The notes under the pieces were generated by a model. It did not search any database. It was not told the origin of the DNA and saw nothing but the letters and a program-made list of their open reading frames with translations. Made by a program: the position numbers and the translations under genes. 64,000 bases of DNA, from NCBI GenBank assembly GCA_036000965.1, contig DASYUT010000048.1, positions 1 to 64,000 on the forward strand. Direction: 5' to 3'. Shown piece after piece: positions 3,602-61,192 of the stretch (its first letter is position 1; every line of letters begins with the position of its first letter). The DNA comes from Actinomycetes bacterium. Its GTDB lineage: Bacteria > Actinomycetota > CALGFH01.

Positions 3602-4959
3602 CGGCCGACGGCACCGGGACCGCGGGCGGCACCGGGAGCGGGACCGGCACCGGGGGCGGCGCCGGCGACGCGGCCGCGCTGCTGGCCAGGCACGCCAAGG
3701 TCCTGCCCGCCTGGCTCACCCTCTACTACGCCGAGCCGGTCGAGCTGGTGCGCGGCGAGGGCGTGCATGTCTGGGACTCGGCCGGCAACCGCTACCTCGA
3801 CTTCTTCGGCGGCATCCTCACCACCATCTCCGGCCACAACGTGCCCGAGCTGACCCGGGTGCTCGAAGACCAGGCCGGCAAGCTCAACCACACCTCGACG
3901 CTGTACCTGATCCGCTCGATGGTGGAGCTGGCCGAGCGGCTCACCGAGCTGGCCCCGGTCGACCCCCCCACCAAGGCGTTCTTCACCACCTCGGGGTCGG
4001 AGGCTAACGAGGCGGCCCTGCTGTTTGCGACCGGGTACCGCAGGTCGAACGAGGTCATCGCGCTGCGCAACTCCTACCACGGCCGCTCGTTCGCCGCGAT
4101 CGGGATCACCGGGCAGAAGTCGTGGTCGGCCTCCTCCTACAGCCCGTTCCAGGTGTCCTACGCGCTCACGCCCTACTGCTACCGCTGCCCGTTCGGCCTC
4201 AAGTACCCCGACTGCGGCGTGGCGTGCGCCGAGGACCTGCGCAACGTGATCGAGACGACCACCACCGGAGCGCCAGCGGCGATGATCGTCGAGCCCATCC
4301 AGGGCGTGGGCGGGTTCGTCACCCCGCCGCCGGAGTACTTCGGGATCGTCAAGTCGATCCTGGACGACTTCGGCATCCCGCTGATCGCCGACGAGGTGCA
4401 GACCGGGTTCGGCCGCACCGGCGAGGCGTTCTGGGGCATCGAGAGCTACGGGGTCCGCCCGGACGCGATCGTCATGGCCAAGGGCCTCGGCAACGGCCTG
4501 GCCATCGGCGGGGTGGTGGCCAAGGCGGAGTGGGTCGACTCGCTGCGGGCCAACCACATCTCGACCTTCGGCGGCGGCCCGGTCAGCTCCCGCTACGCGG
4601 TCGCCAACCTCGACTACATCCGCCGCGAGAACCTGCAGGCCAACGCGGCCCGGACGGGCAGGATCCTGATGGACGGGCTCAAGCCCCTCGAGGCCGAGTC
4701 CCCGATCGTCGGCGAGGTGCGGGGCAAGGGCCTCATGGTCGGGGTCGAGATGGTCGCCGACCACGACTCGAAGGAGCCCAACGTCAAGGCGGCCGCCGAG
4801 GTGATGGAGCGCTGCCGGGAGCGCGGCCTCCTGGTCGGCAAGGGCGGCCTGTACGCCAACACGCTGCGGATCGCGCCGCCCCTGACCGTGACCGAGCAGG
4901 ACGTGGGGCAGGCGGTCGAGACCATCCGGGCCGCGGTCGCGGCCGCCCAGGGCGTCTAG
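3598..4959 (+). CDS. class III omega-aminotransferase (beta-alanine:2-oxo acid type)
   Basis: 453 residues from a GTG that overlaps the preceding stop. A Gly/Thr-rich stretch of about 22 residues at the N-terminus (TADGTGTAGGTGSG) is likely disordered. Class III features follow: TTSGSEANEAA, NSYHGRS, Asp265 in IADEVQTGFGRTG (pyridine-nitrogen contact), and the PLP lysine Lys295 in VMAKGLGNG. A Cys-rich insertion (YCYRCPFGLKYPDCG) is typical of the AGXT2-like branch. In context it should convert beta-alanine or 3-aminoisobutyrate to malonate or methylmalonate semialdehyde, feeding MmsA downstream. Specific amino acceptor is unknown. Confidence 0.88.
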   Translation: MTADGTGTAGGTGSGTGTGGGAGDAAALLARHAKVLPAWLTLYYAEPVELVRGEGVHVWDSAGNRYLDFFGGILTTISGHNVPELTRVLEDQAGKLNHTSTLYLIRSMVELAERLTELAPVDPPTKAFFTTSGSEANEAALLFATGYRRSNEVIALRNSYHGRSFAAIGITGQKSWSASSYSPFQVSYALTPYCYRCPFGLKYPDCGVACAEDLRNVIETTTTGAPAAMIVEPIQGVGGFVTPPPEYFGIVKSILDDFGIPLIADEVQTGFGRTGEAFWGIESYGVRPDAIVMAKGLGNGLAIGGVVAKAEWVDSLRANHISTFGGGPVSSRYAVANLDYIRRENLQANAARTGRILMDGLKPLEAESPIVGEVRGKGLMVGVEMVADHDSKEPNVKAAAEVMERCRERGLLVGKGGLYANTLRIAPPLTVTEQDVGQAVETIRAAVAAAQGV

Positions 4960-4997
4960 GCGCCCGAGGCCGACTCCAACACGAGGAGGTGCACGGA

Positions 4998-6383
4998 GTG
5001 CGAACCCTCATCCAGGGCGGCACGGTGGTGACCGCGGCCGAGACGATGCGGGCCGACGTGCTGGTCGACGGCGAGAAGGTGGTCGCGGTCGGCACCGGGC
5101 TCGGCGGCGGTACCGGCGCCGAGCGGACCGTCGACGCGACCGGACGGTACGTGATGCCTGGCGCGATCGACGTCCACACCCACATGGAGATGCCGTTCGG
5201 CGGCACCTTCTCGGCCGACGACTTCGCCACCGGCACCGCCGCGGCCGCCTGGGGCGGCACCACCACGATCGTGGACTTCGCCATCCACGAGTACGGTGAG
5301 TCCCTGCAGGCCGGACTGGACCGCTGGCACGAGAAGGCCGGCCCCAAGGCGCACATCGACTACGGCTTCCACATGATCGTGCGGGAGGTCAACGACCAGA
5401 CCCTGGCCGACATGGACGCGCTGGTCGACCGCGGGGTGCCGTCGTTCAAGCTGTTCATGGCCTACCCGGGTGTGTTCATGGTCGACGACGCGTCGCTGTT
5501 CCGGGCGATGAGCCGCACCTCCGAGAACGGCGGCCTGATCATGCTCCACGCCGAGAACGGCGGCCCGATCGACGTGCTGATCCAGCGCTACCTGGCCGAG
5601 GGCCGGACCGACCCGATCAACCACGGTCTGACCCGTCCCTCGTCGATGGAGGGCGAGGCGGTGCACCGGGCCGTGGCCCTGGCCGACCTGGCCGGCGTGG
5701 CGGTCTACATCGTCCACCTGTCCTCGGCCGACGCGCTCAACGCGGTCCGCGAGGCGCGCGACCGGGGCCTGGCCACCCTGGCCGAGACCTGCCCGCAGTA
5801 CCTGTACCTCAGCCTCGACGACCTCGGCCGGGAGGGGTTCGAGGGCGCCAAGTACGTCTGCTCGCCGCCGCTGCGGCCCGTGGCCCACCAGGCCGAGCTG
5901 TGGAAGGGGCTCCGCCAGGACGACCTCCAGGTCGTCTCCACCGACCACTGCCCCTTCGACTACAAAGAGCAGAAGGAGATGGGGCGGGGCAACTTCGCCA
6001 AGATCCCCAACGGCCTGCCCGGGGTCGAGGACCGCTTCACCCTCATCTACGACGGCGGGGTGCGGCCAGGCCACATCGGCCTGAACCGCTTCGTCGAGCT
6101 GGTCGCGACCGCCCCGGCCAAGCTGTTCGGCCTGTGGCCCCGCAAGGGCACGATCGCGCCGGGGTCCGACGCCGACGTCGTGGTGTTCGACCCCGAGGCC
6201 GAGCGGACCCTGTCGGCCTCCACTCACCACATGAACGTCGACTACTCCTGCTACGAGGGCCGGCGCGTGCACGGGATCCCCGAGGTGGTCATGCAGCGCG
6301 GCGAGATCCTGGTCGACCACGGCACCTTCCTGGGCCGGCCCGGCCAGGGCAGGTTCCTCGAGCGGAGCCGCTCCGGCCTGTAG
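4998..6383 (+). CDS. hydA: dihydropyrimidinase / hydantoinase
   Basis: 461 residues from a GTG with GAGGAGGT nine bases upstream; the open frame extends far 5' but only as a shadow of the aminotransferase. Amidohydrolase metal ligands are all present: His60 and His62 (DVHTHMEM), the carboxylated Lys151 (PSFKLFMAYPG), His184 (LHAEN), His240 (IVHLSS) and Asp316 (STDHCPF). The length and the YPGVF loop fit dihydropyrimidinase (EC 3.5.2.2), which opens dihydrouracil or dihydrothymine to N-carbamoyl-beta-amino acids. It sits 38 bp after the aminotransferase in the same operon. Hydantoins are possible alternative substrates. Confidence 0.92.
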   Translation: MRTLIQGGTVVTAAETMRADVLVDGEKVVAVGTGLGGGTGAERTVDATGRYVMPGAIDVHTHMEMPFGGTFSADDFATGTAAAAWGGTTTIVDFAIHEYGESLQAGLDRWHEKAGPKAHIDYGFHMIVREVNDQTLADMDALVDRGVPSFKLFMAYPGVFMVDDASLFRAMSRTSENGGLIMLHAENGGPIDVLIQRYLAEGRTDPINHGLTRPSSMEGEAVHRAVALADLAGVAVYIVHLSSADALNAVREARDRGLATLAETCPQYLYLSLDDLGREGFEGAKYVCSPPLRPVAHQAELWKGLRQDDLQVVSTDHCPFDYKEQKEMGRGNFAKIPNGLPGVEDRFTLIYDGGVRPGHIGLNRFVELVATAPAKLFGLWPRKGTIAPGSDADVVVFDPEAERTLSASTHHMNVDYSCYEGRRVHGIPEVVMQRGEILVDHGTFLGRPGQGRFLERSRSGL

Positions 6384-6394
6384 AGGAGGCACCA

Positions 6395-6544
6395 ATGACC
6401 ACGGCGGGCGCCACCCGGAAGCCATGCGGGCAGGAGGAGCGCCGATGACCACGGCGGGCGCCACCCCGAGAGCACGCGGACAGGAGGAGCGTCGATGACC
6501 ACGGCGGGCGCCACCCCGAAGCCACGCGGACAGGAGGAGCGCCA
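6395..6544 (+). repeat. three tandem 50-bp copies of an RBS-ATG unit forming coupled 17-codon mini-ORFs
   Basis: Units at 6395-6444, 6445-6494 and 6495-6544 are nearly identical. Each starts with ATGACCACGGCGGGCGCCAC and ends with CAGGAGGAGCG plus 3 nt, i.e. a start codon followed by a strong Shine-Dalgarno for the next unit. Each ATG opens a 17-codon ORF (first copy MTTAGATRKPCGQEERR) whose TGA overlaps the next ATG as ATGA; the third overlaps the ATG of mmsA at 6545. Because the unit is 50 bp, successive ORFs are in different frames. The arrangement forces termination-reinitiation through three peptides before mmsA. Whether the peptides are made is not known. Confidence 0.85.
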
Positions 6545-7987
6545 ATGACCGACCGGGTGCCGAGCTACATCGCCGGCCGCGTGCGCGAGTCCGGCGCGGC
6601 CGAGACCCATCCCATCCCCGACCCGGCCACGGGCCAGCCCATCGCCGAGCTGCCCTACTCGAGCACCGACGAGATCGACGAGGCGGCCGCCGCCGCCCGG
6701 GCCGCCTTCCCGGGCTGGGCCGACACTCCGGTCCCCGACCGGGCGCAGGTCCTGTTCCGCTTCAAGGCCCTGCTCGAGGACGCCTTCGAGGAGCTGGCCG
6801 CGCTGGTCACCCGGGAGAACGGCAAGACCCTGGACGAGGCGCGCGGGGAGGTGCGCCGCGGCATCGAGGTGGTCGACTTCGCCTGCGGCGCCCCCACCCT
6901 GCTGATGGGCTCGGCCATCGACCAGATCGCCAGCGGCATCGACGAGCGGCTGATCCGCTTCCCCGTGGGGGTGGTGGCCGGCATCACACCATTCAACTTC
7001 CCCAACATGGTGCCCCTGTGGATGATCCCGACCGCGCTGGCGTGCGGGAACACCTTCGTGCACAAGCCCTCCCAGCAGACCCCGCTGTCGGCGATGAAGC
7101 TGGCCGAGCTGCTCGAGCGGGCCGGCCTGCCCGAGGGTGTGTTCAACGTCGTCCACGGCGCCGAGCAGGCCGTCACCCGCCTGCTCGAGCACCCGGAGGT
7201 CGACGCGGTGTCGTTCGTGGGCTCGGCCCGGGTGGCCCGGATCGTCTACACCCAGGGCGCGGCCAACGGCAAGCGGGTCCAGGCCCTCGGCGGGGCCAAG
7301 AACCACCTGCTGGTGATGGACGACGCCGACCTCGAGGCGACCGTGCCCGCGCTGGTCGCGTCCGCGTTCGGCAACGCCGGGCAGCGCTGCCTGGCCGGCA
7401 GCGTTGCGGTGGGCGTGGGCTCGGTCGGCGACGCGCTGGTCGAGGAGCTGGCCGCGCAGGCGTCGGCGCTCAAGGTCGGGCCGGGCGCCGAGCCGGGCAC
7501 CGACATGGGCCCGGTGATCCGGGCCGAGCGCAAGCAGGCCATCGCCAGGCAGGTCGGCGAGGGCCGCGACGCCGGCGCGACCCTGGTCGCCGACGGCCGC
7601 GACGCGGTCGACTCCGAGGGCTTCTTCCTGGGTCCCAGCATCCTCGACCACGTCACCCCGGACATGGACGTGTGGCGCACCGAGCTGTTCGGCCCGGTCC
7701 TGTCGGTCGTGCGGGCCCGCGACGTCGACGAGGCGCTCGCCACCGCCAACCGCTCCAGCTACGGGAACATGGCCTCGATCTTCACCACCTCCGGCAGGAA
7801 CGCGCGCGAGTTCCGCCGCCGCATCCAGGCCGGCATGCTCGGGGTCAACATCGGGGTGGCCGCGCCCATGGCGTTCCTGCCCTTCACTGGCTGGAAGGAC
7901 TCGTTCTTCGGCGACCTGCACGCCACCGGCACCGACTCGATCCGCTTCTACACCCGGCAGAAGGTGATCACCCAGCGCTGGTTCTAG
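6545..7987 (+). CDS. mmsA: CoA-acylating (methyl)malonate-semialdehyde dehydrogenase
   Basis: 480 residues of the aldehyde dehydrogenase superfamily. ITPFNFPNMVPLWM, VHKPSQQTPLSAMKLAEL, SFVGSARVAR and the catalytic Cys282 in GNAGQRCLAGS match MmsA-type enzymes (EC 1.2.1.27/1.2.1.18), which oxidise and decarboxylate malonate or methylmalonate semialdehyde to acetyl-CoA or propionyl-CoA with NAD+. This completes the route from dihydropyrimidines to central metabolism encoded by the four genes upstream. The start at 6545 has AGGAGGAG nine bases upstream; the same start region is triplicated immediately before it. The 3' end overlaps a convergent MFS remnant by 20 bp. Confidence 0.92.
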   Translation: MTDRVPSYIAGRVRESGAAETHPIPDPATGQPIAELPYSSTDEIDEAAAAARAAFPGWADTPVPDRAQVLFRFKALLEDAFEELAALVTRENGKTLDEARGEVRRGIEVVDFACGAPTLLMGSAIDQIASGIDERLIRFPVGVVAGITPFNFPNMVPLWMIPTALACGNTFVHKPSQQTPLSAMKLAELLERAGLPEGVFNVVHGAEQAVTRLLEHPEVDAVSFVGSARVARIVYTQGAANGKRVQALGGAKNHLLVMDDADLEATVPALVASAFGNAGQRCLAGSVAVGVGSVGDALVEELAAQASALKVGPGAEPGTDMGPVIRAERKQAIARQVGEGRDAGATLVADGRDAVDSEGFFLGPSILDHVTPDMDVWRTELFGPVLSVVRARDVDEALATANRSSYGNMASIFTTSGRNAREFRRRIQAGMLGVNIGVAAPMAFLPFTGWKDSFFGDLHATGTDSIRFYTRQKVITQRWF

Positions 7988-21091: not shown

Positions 21092-22807
21092 ATGAGCACT
21101 ACCGCGACCACCCCGGCCGGGCGGCCCGGCCACCAGGACGCCGACCCGCGCCGCTGGGTCGCCCTGGCCGTCGTGCTGATCGCCGGCTTCATGCAGCTGG
21201 TCGACATCAGCATCGTCAACGTCGCCATCCCGTCGATCCAGCGCGACCTGGACGCGACCTACAGCCAGATCCAGTGGGTGCTGGCCGGCTACCAGCTCGC
21301 CTTCGCGGTCACCCTCATCACGGGCGGCCGGCTCGGCGACATCTTCGGGCGCAAGCGCATGTTCATGCTCGGCATGACCGGCTTCACCCTCGCCTCCGCC
21401 CTGTGCGGCCTGGCCCAGAACCCCGGCATGCTGATCGGCTCCCGGCTCCTTCAGGGCCTCATGGGCGCGGTCATGTTCCCGCAGATCCTGGCCGTCATCC
21501 AGGTGACCTTCCCGCCCCGGGAGCGTGCCGCCGCCCTCGGCAGCTTCGGCGCCACCATCGGGCTGGCCACGATCACCGGCCCGCTGGTCGGGGGGCTGCT
21601 CATCGAGGCCGACCTGCTGGGCCTCGGCTGGCGGCCGATCTTCCTGGTCAACGTCCCCATCGGCATCGCCGCCCTGGTCGCGGCCACGCGCTTCCTGCAC
21701 GAGTCCAGGTCGCCCCAGGCGCTGCGGCTGGACCTGGTCGGCGTCGGCATCGTCAGCGCCGGCCTGCTGCTGCTGGTCTACCCGCTGGTCCAGGGCCGCG
21801 ACCTCGACTGGCCGGCCTGGACGTTCCTGTCGATGGCCGCGGCCGTGCCCGTGCTGGCCGCCTTCGCCGTCTGGGAGCGGCGCAAGAAGGCGGCCGACGG
21901 CTCCCCGCTGGTCGAACCGGCCCTGTTCCGGCAGCGGGCGTTCGTCGCCGGTCTGCTGGTGGCCGGCATCTTCTTCATGGGCATCCCGGCCTTCTTCCTG
22001 ACCTTCACGCTCTGGCTGCAGATCGGGCTCGGCTTCACCGCCCTGCACGCCGGGCTCACCGGCATCCCGTTCGCGGTCGGCTCGGCGCTCGCCTCGGCCG
22101 CCTCGGCGCGGCTGGCGCCCCGGCTGGGCCGGCGCATCCTCAGCCTCGGCACGCTGCTGCTGGCCGCCGGCATGGCCGGGCTCAGCTGGACCGTCGACCG
22201 CTACGGCGGCGGGGTCGACTCCTGGCAGCTCATCCCCGCCCTGGCCGTATGCGGCCTCGGCCTGGGCTGCGTGATCGCGCCGCTGGTCAACATCGTGCTC
22301 GACGGCATCCGCGGGCAGGACGCCGGCTCGGCCTCGGGGGTGCTCACCACCATCCAGCAGGTCGGCGGCGCGGTCGGGGTGGCCGTGATCGGGGTGATCT
22401 TCTTCGGGCTGCTCGGCAGCCACGCCGCTGCGGTCACCGCCGACCTGGCCCCGCGGCTCCGTGCCGACCTTGAGACGGCGGGGGCGCCCGCACCGGTGAG
22501 CCGGCAGGTCGTCGCCGGCTTCGAGGCCTGCTTCCAGGACCGGGCCAACGCCAAGGACCCGTCGGCCACCCCGGCCAGCTGCCAGCGCGCGCAGACCCGG
22601 GCGCAGGCCCCTGGCCAGGACCGGATCGGCCAGGTGGTGACGGCGGCCGCCGAGGACGCCCGCAGGCAGAACTTCTCCGACGCCTTCGAGCGCACCCTGC
22701 TGTTCGAGGTCGCCGTGTACCTCGTCTGCTTCCTGCTGATCTTCCTGCTGCCGGGTGCCCGTGGCAGAGCCTTGGAGCAGTCGCCAGAGGCCGCAGCGCT
22801 CGCCTGA
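21092..22807 (+). CDS. DHA2-family MFS drug exporter (14-TM, EmrB/QacA type)
   Basis: 571 residues with about 14 hydrophobic helices. MQLVDISIVNVAIPSIQRDL (helix 1, motif D1), GGRLGDIFGRKRMF (motif A between helices 2 and 3), LLQGLMGAVMFP and the LGSFGATIGLATITGPLVGG motif C of drug/proton antiporters are all visible. A soluble loop of about 90 residues (CFQDRANAKDPSATPASC and neighbours) lies before the last helix, as in other actinobacterial members. Predicted to export hydrophobic or cationic drugs using the proton gradient. No regulator adjoins it. Confidence 0.9.
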   Translation: MSTTATTPAGRPGHQDADPRRWVALAVVLIAGFMQLVDISIVNVAIPSIQRDLDATYSQIQWVLAGYQLAFAVTLITGGRLGDIFGRKRMFMLGMTGFTLASALCGLAQNPGMLIGSRLLQGLMGAVMFPQILAVIQVTFPPRERAAALGSFGATIGLATITGPLVGGLLIEADLLGLGWRPIFLVNVPIGIAALVAATRFLHESRSPQALRLDLVGVGIVSAGLLLLVYPLVQGRDLDWPAWTFLSMAAAVPVLAAFAVWERRKKAADGSPLVEPALFRQRAFVAGLLVAGIFFMGIPAFFLTFTLWLQIGLGFTALHAGLTGIPFAVGSALASAASARLAPRLGRRILSLGTLLLAAGMAGLSWTVDRYGGGVDSWQLIPALAVCGLGLGCVIAPLVNIVLDGIRGQDAGSASGVLTTIQQVGGAVGVAVIGVIFFGLLGSHAAAVTADLAPRLRADLETAGAPAPVSRQVVAGFEACFQDRANAKDPSATPASCQRAQTRAQAPGQDRIGQVVTAAAEDARRQNFSDAFERTLLFEVAVYLVCFLLIFLLPGARGRALEQSPEAAALA

Positions 22808-59190: not shown

Positions 59191-60260
<1,070 letters not shown>

Positions 60261-60264
<4 letters not shown>

Positions 60265-60329
60265 GCGGGCCGGGCGCAGGGATCGTCTCGCCAGGGATCG
60301 TCTCGCGCGGGCAGGAGGGGCGCCGATGA
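60261..60329 (+). promoter_or_regulatory. 22-codon ORF bridging prfA and prmC
   Basis: An ATG overlapping the prfA stop (ATGA at 60261) opens a 22-codon ORF (begins MSGPGAGIVSPG) whose TGA overlaps the prmC ATG (60326). It contains an internal direct repeat, GGGATCGTCTCG twice, and ends with GGGCAGGAGGGGCGCCG, the prmC ribosome site. The layout matches the mini-ORFs before mmsA and thrC. Confidence 0.6.
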
Positions 60330-61192
60330 CCGCCCGGGCCGAGCAGGCGCCGGCCGTCCGCGACCTGCTCGCGGCGGTCACCCGCGAGCTGGCCGGGGCC
60401 GGCTGCGTGTCGGCCCGGGCCGAGGCGCGCTGGCTGGTCGGGGAGGCGCTCGGCCTGGACCGGCCGGAGCTGGCCGGTCGGGGAACGGCGGTGCCCGGGC
60501 CGGCACGCGAGCGGCTGGCCGCGATGGTGGCGCGCCGGGTGTCCGGGGAGCCGCTGCAGTACGTCGTCGGCTGGGCTCCGTTCGGAGGCCTGCGGCTCGA
60601 GGTCGGCCCGGACGTGTTCGTGCCCCGTCCCGAGACCGAGGGGCTGGCCGAGCGGGCGGCCAGGCTGCTGCGGGCGGGGCCCGCTCCGCGCGTGGCAGTC
60701 GACCTGTGCACCGGGTCGGGCGCGGTCGCGTGCTTCCTCGCTCACGCGGTGCCCGGAGCCCGGGTCGTGGCCACCGAGCTGGACCCCGGCGCGCTCGCCT
60801 GGGCCCGGCGCAACACCGGCCGCCACGGCGTCGAGTTGCTCGAGGGGGACCTCGACGGGCCCCTCCCGCCCGAGCTGGCCGGCCAGGTGCGGGTCATGAC
60901 CGCCAACGTGCCCTACGTGCCGACCGCGGCCATCGACCTGCTCCCGCGCGACGTGCGCGAGCACGAGCCGCGACTGGCCCTGGACGGCGGCCCCGACGGC
61001 CTGGACGTGCTGCGGGCGGTGGCGGCGCGAGCGCCGCGCTGGCTCGCCGGTGGTGGGCGGCTGTTCTGCGAGATCGGCGACGACCAGGGCGGGACCGCCG
61101 TGCGTGTGCTCGAGGAGTCCGGCTTCCGGGAGGTCGGCGTCCACCCCGACCTGGTCGGTCGGGACCGCGTGATCGAAGGGAGGCGACCGTGA
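60326..61192 (+). CDS. prmC: release factor glutamine methyltransferase
   Basis: 288 residues. N-terminal helical domain (residues 1-75, RAEARWLVGEALGLDRPELA), then SAM-binding VAVDLCTGSGAVACFLAHAV and the substrate-binding motif, here NVPY at 194-197 instead of canonical NPPY. The C-terminal FCEIGDDQGG segment fits PrmC. Methylates the GGQ glutamine of release factors. The NVPY variant occurs in a related actinobacterial methylase group, but the position after prfA supports the PrmC role. It overlaps the Sua5 gene (GTGA). Confidence 0.9.
   Translation: MTARAEQAPAVRDLLAAVTRELAGAGCVSARAEARWLVGEALGLDRPELAGRGTAVPGPARERLAAMVARRVSGEPLQYVVGWAPFGGLRLEVGPDVFVPRPETEGLAERAARLLRAGPAPRVAVDLCTGSGAVACFLAHAVPGARVVATELDPGALAWARRNTGRHGVELLEGDLDGPLPPELAGQVRVMTANVPYVPTAAIDLLPRDVREHEPRLALDGGPDGLDVLRAVAARAPRWLAGGGRLFCEIGDDQGGTAVRVLEESGFREVGVHPDLVGRDRVIEGRRP

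Follow-up and report, generated by a model that had tools for sequence, protein, structure and literature searches.

Mycobacterial interspersed repetitive units (MIRUs) are in worldwide use for the typing of tuberculosis strains, and to our knowledge both the manner in which they move and the reason for their placement at stop/start overlaps are still open. The palindromic elements of Rickettsia are also short repeats, which are able to insert in frame into coding sequence. The MIRUs (Supply et al., 1997, summarized in PMC12548453) are described in a 2025 review as apparently mobile elements that insert at start codons and carry an inner ORF coupled at −4 nt, with the host gene being minimally affected (PMC12548453). 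The units at the senX3-regX3 locus are 77 and 53 bp in length (PMC4213456).

In the 64,000-nucleotide stretch of actinobacterial DNA analyzed here (the window), three 50-bp units lie in front of mmsA. We consider, with a probability of about 0.85, that this array consists of three tandem copies of a member of a lineage-specific interspersed repeat family, which is coupling-preserving, near-neutral, mobile and MIRU-like. As with the MIRUs, this is a short repeat scattered widely through a single genome (94 units, 68 loci); its small internal ORF overlaps the neighboring stop/start by 4 nt; its insertion, seen here via empty sites, is at start codons or TGA overlaps; and it is found, at almost all loci, in sense orientation in the operon, and also in tandem arrays (here of 1–3 units). 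It differs from them in its unit length (50 bp versus 77/53 bp; PMC4213456), in its host, which belongs to a non-mycobacterial actinobacterial family, and in that a sizeable class of units forms in-frame fusions with host proteins. The family matches the MIRU way of working, but as the host differs and the likeness is drawn from descriptions of the MIRUs, we refrain from calling it one. In the literature collection searched, no report of MIRU-like elements beyond the mycobacteria turned up. The fused class (carA, ruvB) recalls the in-frame insertion of the Rickettsia elements, although the present family targets stop/start junctions and has no supported palindromic fold. In leader ORFs and bicistronic coupling, a short translated ORF brings ribosomes to the downstream gene (PMC4833913, PMC12548453), as the present one would, but here the ORF comes as a dispersed repeat and without peptide conservation.

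The array in front of mmsA

The operon in the window resembles one for reductive pyrimidine catabolism, with genes for a beta-ureidopropionase-like protein, an aminotransferase, a dihydropyrimidinase, and a methylmalonate-semialdehyde dehydrogenase, the first two of these labels coming only from reading of the translations. Seven tandem copies of a 19-bp sequence (CCGACGAGCGCAGGACCCA) at 2591–2725 lie directly 5' of the first of these genes, which starts at 2756 and encodes the beta-ureidopropionase-like protein, and may belong to its promoter region. The N-terminus of the aminotransferase contains a Gly/Thr-rich stretch that is encoded by 18-bp repeats (3609–3666). The features of the array and its neighbors are listed in Table 1.

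Table 1. Positions in the window of the repeat units and of the features adjoining the mmsA array.
Feature	Position	Strand	Remarks
Dihydropyrimidinase (D-hydantoinase), 5' neighbor of array	4956..6383	+	TIGR02033, E 1.6e-179; TAG stop 6381-6383
Shine-Dalgarno GAGGAGG ahead of unit 1	6383..6389	+	Read from sequence
Repeat unit 1	6395..6444	+	Mini-ORF 6395-6448, 17 codons; model R1, E 5e-16 (own-genome search)
Repeat unit 2	6445..6494	+	Mini-ORF 6445-6498, 17 codons
Repeat unit 3	6495..6544	+	Mini-ORF 6495-6548, 17 codons; 1/50 differences versus L204 unit on contig C323
mmsA, methylmalonate-semialdehyde dehydrogenase, 3' of array	6545..7987	+	TIGR01722, E 1.6e-180; ATG overlaps TGA of mini-ORF 3
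Second family member in window, diverged, 22-codon mini-ORF	60261..60329	+	Model match 60250-60331, E 5.7e-6; TRF 60277-60306

A period of 50 was detected by TRF at 6383–6550 (3.3 copies, 89% matches), and the three units differ pairwise at 4–7 of 50 positions. Each of them opens with ATGACC and begins a mini-ORF of 54 nt including the stop; the mini-ORFs, which are predicted to be coding, translate as MTTAGATRKPCGQEERR, MTTAGATPRARGQEERR and MTTAGATPKPRGQEERQ in units 1, 2 and 3, respectively, each ending at its stop. An ATGA overlap joins the stop of each mini-ORF to the next start, the frames rotate, and the chain ends at the mmsA ATG, with AGGAGG situated 7 nt 5' of the ATGs at 6445, 6495 and 6545. 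The first-pass annotation had described three 50-bp units with these properties, and both the sequence and TRF bear this out. Its arithmetic was also right, as a copy with a period of 2 mod 3 that is bounded by an RTGA extends the chain by one coupled ORF and leaves it unbroken, and this holds genome-wide. However, its view that the start region of mmsA itself had been triplicated does not hold, because the sequences differ after ATGACC, and the unit is a dispersed repeat that was inserted there. The first junction is not an overlap, the TAG of the dihydropyrimidinase gene being 11 nt before the ATG of unit 1. In outgroup operons, the junction between the dihydropyrimidinase gene and mmsA is plain and without an array, and the GAGGAGG motif ahead of unit 1 is probably the original ribosome site of mmsA. 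In the sister genomes, an mmsA orthologue with a comparable start was sought but none was found; the best had 49% identity and was near a contig end.

Distribution of the family and its filled and empty sites

The genome carrying the array (G000) is a draft metagenome-assembled genome, and the only two other genomes of its family (G001 and G002) belong to a sister genus. G000 contains ten WhiB genes, a mark of the Actinomycetota, and from these genes, the family membership, and the nearest mmsA records, we infer that the host family is not the Mycobacteriaceae. When the array was used as a query against G000, matches were obtained on many other contigs, nearly all of them at gene starts. Two sequence-only models were constructed, R1 from an alignment of 20 units (A1) and R2 from an alignment of 80 units (A2). 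With R2, 94 units were found at E ≤ 1e-3 on 44 contigs; of the 68 loci, 48 carry one unit, 14 carry two and 6 carry three. This count is not independent, since R2 was trained on the same units, and with R1 the number is about 55 (E < 1e-3). The sister genomes contain 6 and 12 units, 18 in total (R2, E ≤ 0.01). Among other Actinomycetota, R1 had no match at E ≤ 1e-3 in the 147 genomes searched, and with R2 no multi-copy family was present in 394, of which 11 genomes yielded isolated single matches. This difference, together with the presence on another contig of a unit with a single mismatch to unit 3, indicates that the mmsA array is not due to chance. The second family member in the window, located between prfA-like and prmC-like genes, is ATGA-coupled to both (prmC starts at 60326), and its internal 15-bp duplication (CAGGGATCGTCTCGC) keeps the coupled frame at 22 codons.

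An artefact of assembly, which the first-pass annotation had itself named as a refuting condition, or one of binning might be suspected in a draft of 358 contigs with 4.19% contamination. However, the three units of the array are not identical, and the family is found on 44 contigs as well as in two sister-genus assemblies, which makes such an origin extremely improbable.

The comparison with the sister genomes provides evidence that the units were inserted. Most of the orthologous junctions there are empty, and at least 13 lack the element in G001/G002 (purB-purC, truB-ribF, moaC-moaB, argB-argD, carA, mnmA, gcvT, nadK, aroQ, yvcK, cdd, pknB, and ruvB), and are plain stop/start overlaps; the empty truB-ribF junction, for instance, reads AAGGTGGTGCTGGC followed directly by GTGACC. 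A reciprocal case is provided by an ABC permease (L325 versus L270), where the site is filled in G002 by an exact 50-bp insert (GAGGTGCGCGAGCA, then 50 bp up to GTGAGCGTCCTG) and empty in G000 (GAGGTGCGGGAGCG joined to GTGAACGTGCTG). The L261 site is also reciprocal, its counterpart in G000 being empty, whereas folB (filled in G001) was dropped from this category as G000 has an apparent degenerate unit there. At two sites, the dppF-like L213/L265 and L245/L271, both lineages carry the element, for which either common ancestry or two independent insertions could account.

The unit closest to all three mmsA units is not in this array but at another locus (L204), and outside ATGACC the flanks of that unit are unrelated to those of unit 3; this near-identity in unrelated surroundings indicates that units copy between loci. 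Tandem duplication within arrays also occurs, as for 17 of 28 array units the most similar unit is another one of the same array. This frequent likeness of tandem neighbors, and the presence of arrays of 1–3 units as counted by the model, would also be expected of a contingency array, in which frequent changes in unit number by slippage or recombination switch the expression of MmsA. We regard this as very unlikely, since the mmsA units are 8–14% diverged, and hence the array is not freshly slipping, and since whole-unit changes all preserve the coupling, so that no on/off phase exists.

Translation path and sequence constraint

Of the 66 loci that were scored, a set from which eight weak or end-of-operon matches and one contig-edge match were excluded, the upstream stop overlaps the RTGA at the unit in 62. 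The base rate of RTGA overlaps in the genome can be given only as a crude estimate, from strict gene calls, of 1 in 15 gene pairs in the window. A complete path of stop-to-start overlaps into the downstream gene was found by automatic scoring at 57 of the 66 loci. Six of the nine misses are due to faults in the frame guess or the distance limit (L205 first site, L206, L215, L229, L243 and L261), and the others are L236, L252, and mmsA, the last of which lacks the overlap on its 5' side. The units are in sense orientation with respect to the operon at almost all loci, the downstream gene reading in the same direction. At L237 and L238, relics of the family are found behind stop codons at operon ends, where apparently no gene is entered, and these are perhaps insertions at a TGA that lacks a start.

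The lengths of the mini-ORFs peak at 17 codons and then at 33/34, with others of 48 and 51 codons, and these longer forms arise where tandem copies have lost the internal RTGA. Based upon strongly matching junctions, to which the analysis was restricted because counting with a fuzzy core yielded many phantom cores, the period of such copies is nearly always 45, 48 or 51 (0 mod 3) and the frame runs on; the exception is L250, where a GTGA has been regained by another route. In several places, an in-frame fusion joins the unit to the downstream protein at its N-terminus (carA at L230, ruvB at L206, L235 and L255, and L266 and L269 in the sister genomes). At L209, L225, and L242, it is the C-terminus of the upstream protein that the unit extends. 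The N-terminal fusions at L206, L230, L235, L269, and L266 appear as lineage-specific extensions of roughly 16–30 residues on conserved proteins. Indels do not break the chain in every case, as simulated +1 shifts keep 66% of the paths; such shifts are tolerated due to in-frame fusion, and thus only one of the three phases is harmful. When indels into this single harmful phase were simulated, 27% of the paths survived. A separate and purely local 23-bp tandem repeat adjoins a family member at L218 (contig C53 of G000, about 22710–22760), where it forms a chain of ATGA-coupled 8-codon ORFs with a period of 2 mod 3.

The unit is built from TGA with a block, GGCGGGCGC, that is conserved, a middle part that varies, a Shine-Dalgarno sequence, and GCGCC; its end lies directly in front of the following RTGA. 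The conserved parts are GGCGGGCGC and SD-N-GCGCC-NN-RTGA, and within them all codon positions are conserved. Third codon positions are strongly conserved (G 76/80, C 75/80), and in codons 4–5 they are about as conserved as the first and second positions. A conserved leader peptide was therefore rejected, because the third positions are not variable and the conservation is at the DNA level. The conservation of all positions, combined with the variable middle, points to a constraint on the DNA (mobility) or on the ribosome site and argues against a function of the peptide, the sequence of which is probably irrelevant. The same observations bear upon the suggestion of purely local duplication with convergence, according to which the start region at each locus was doubled on its own and the similarity (MTTAGA...) results from GC-rich codon use. 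Some short local duplications elsewhere do produce chains of this type, as at L218 with its 23-bp repeats, but this explanation is highly improbable in view of the near-invariant 9-bp and GCGCC blocks at unrelated loci, third positions included, the pair of units differing at 1 of 50 positions, the lack of such a multi-copy family in the other high-GC Actinomycetota, and the dissimilarity of the mmsA codons to the unit.

RNA folding of the units was no better than that of shuffled sequences (z-scores of −0.1 to +1.8), and no covariation was seen. The Shine-Dalgarno strength was compared between filled starts and empty orthologous starts (means of 4.8 versus 4.6, P 0.32), and in the lack of a difference a boosting of this signal by the element was rejected. 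As no signal of peptide, RNA structure or Shine-Dalgarno strength is present, the element is taken to be near-neutral and tolerated for keeping the coupling. These results also weigh against the proposal, made in the first-pass annotation, that the number of units sets the output of MmsA through successive reinitiation. A good Shine-Dalgarno sequence and an ATGA overlap are present at every start, and for Actinobacteria it has been proposed that leader ORFs increase expression through reinitiation (PMC4833913); however, the element stands in front of some 68 genes that are unrelated to each other, ruvB, carA, purC, ribF, and mnmA among them, whose orthologues in the sister genomes do without it. 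Dosage tuning at mmsA is thus possible but unsupported, and we consider it unlikely.

Proposed mechanism and significance

In the explanation that we favor, i.e., that of a mobile repeat family, a unit would copy itself, or be copied in trans, into the TGA of an RTGA junction. The insert, being 2 mod 3 in length with one open frame and its own Shine-Dalgarno sequence, would then form a cistron of 17 codons with −4 nt coupling on either side, and because of this coupling the host operon would be barely disturbed. Local tandem duplication may subsequently build arrays such as that at mmsA, while purifying selection would clear those indels that break the translation path, a path read here from the DNA. 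Neither a mobilizing enzyme nor an autonomous copy of the element was found. We suggest, tentatively and with less assurance than for the nature of the array itself, that enzyme-less mobile micro-elements with RTGA overlaps as integration sites, which survive by means of length- and frame-preserved coupling, have evolved independently, and that the MIRU lifestyle arose more than once in the Actinomycetota.

A second family of this kind, which is present in another actinobacterial lineage in dozens of copies and for which clean empty sites are available, provides a comparative data set. For the annotation of such genomes it carries a warning, as repeat-derived extensions can shift start sites. 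One outcome of insertion is that a conserved protein, for example RuvB or CarA, acquires the repeat as an in-frame fusion. The family pins the insertion point to the overlap TGA, and the states that survive are those that let ribosomes pass through.
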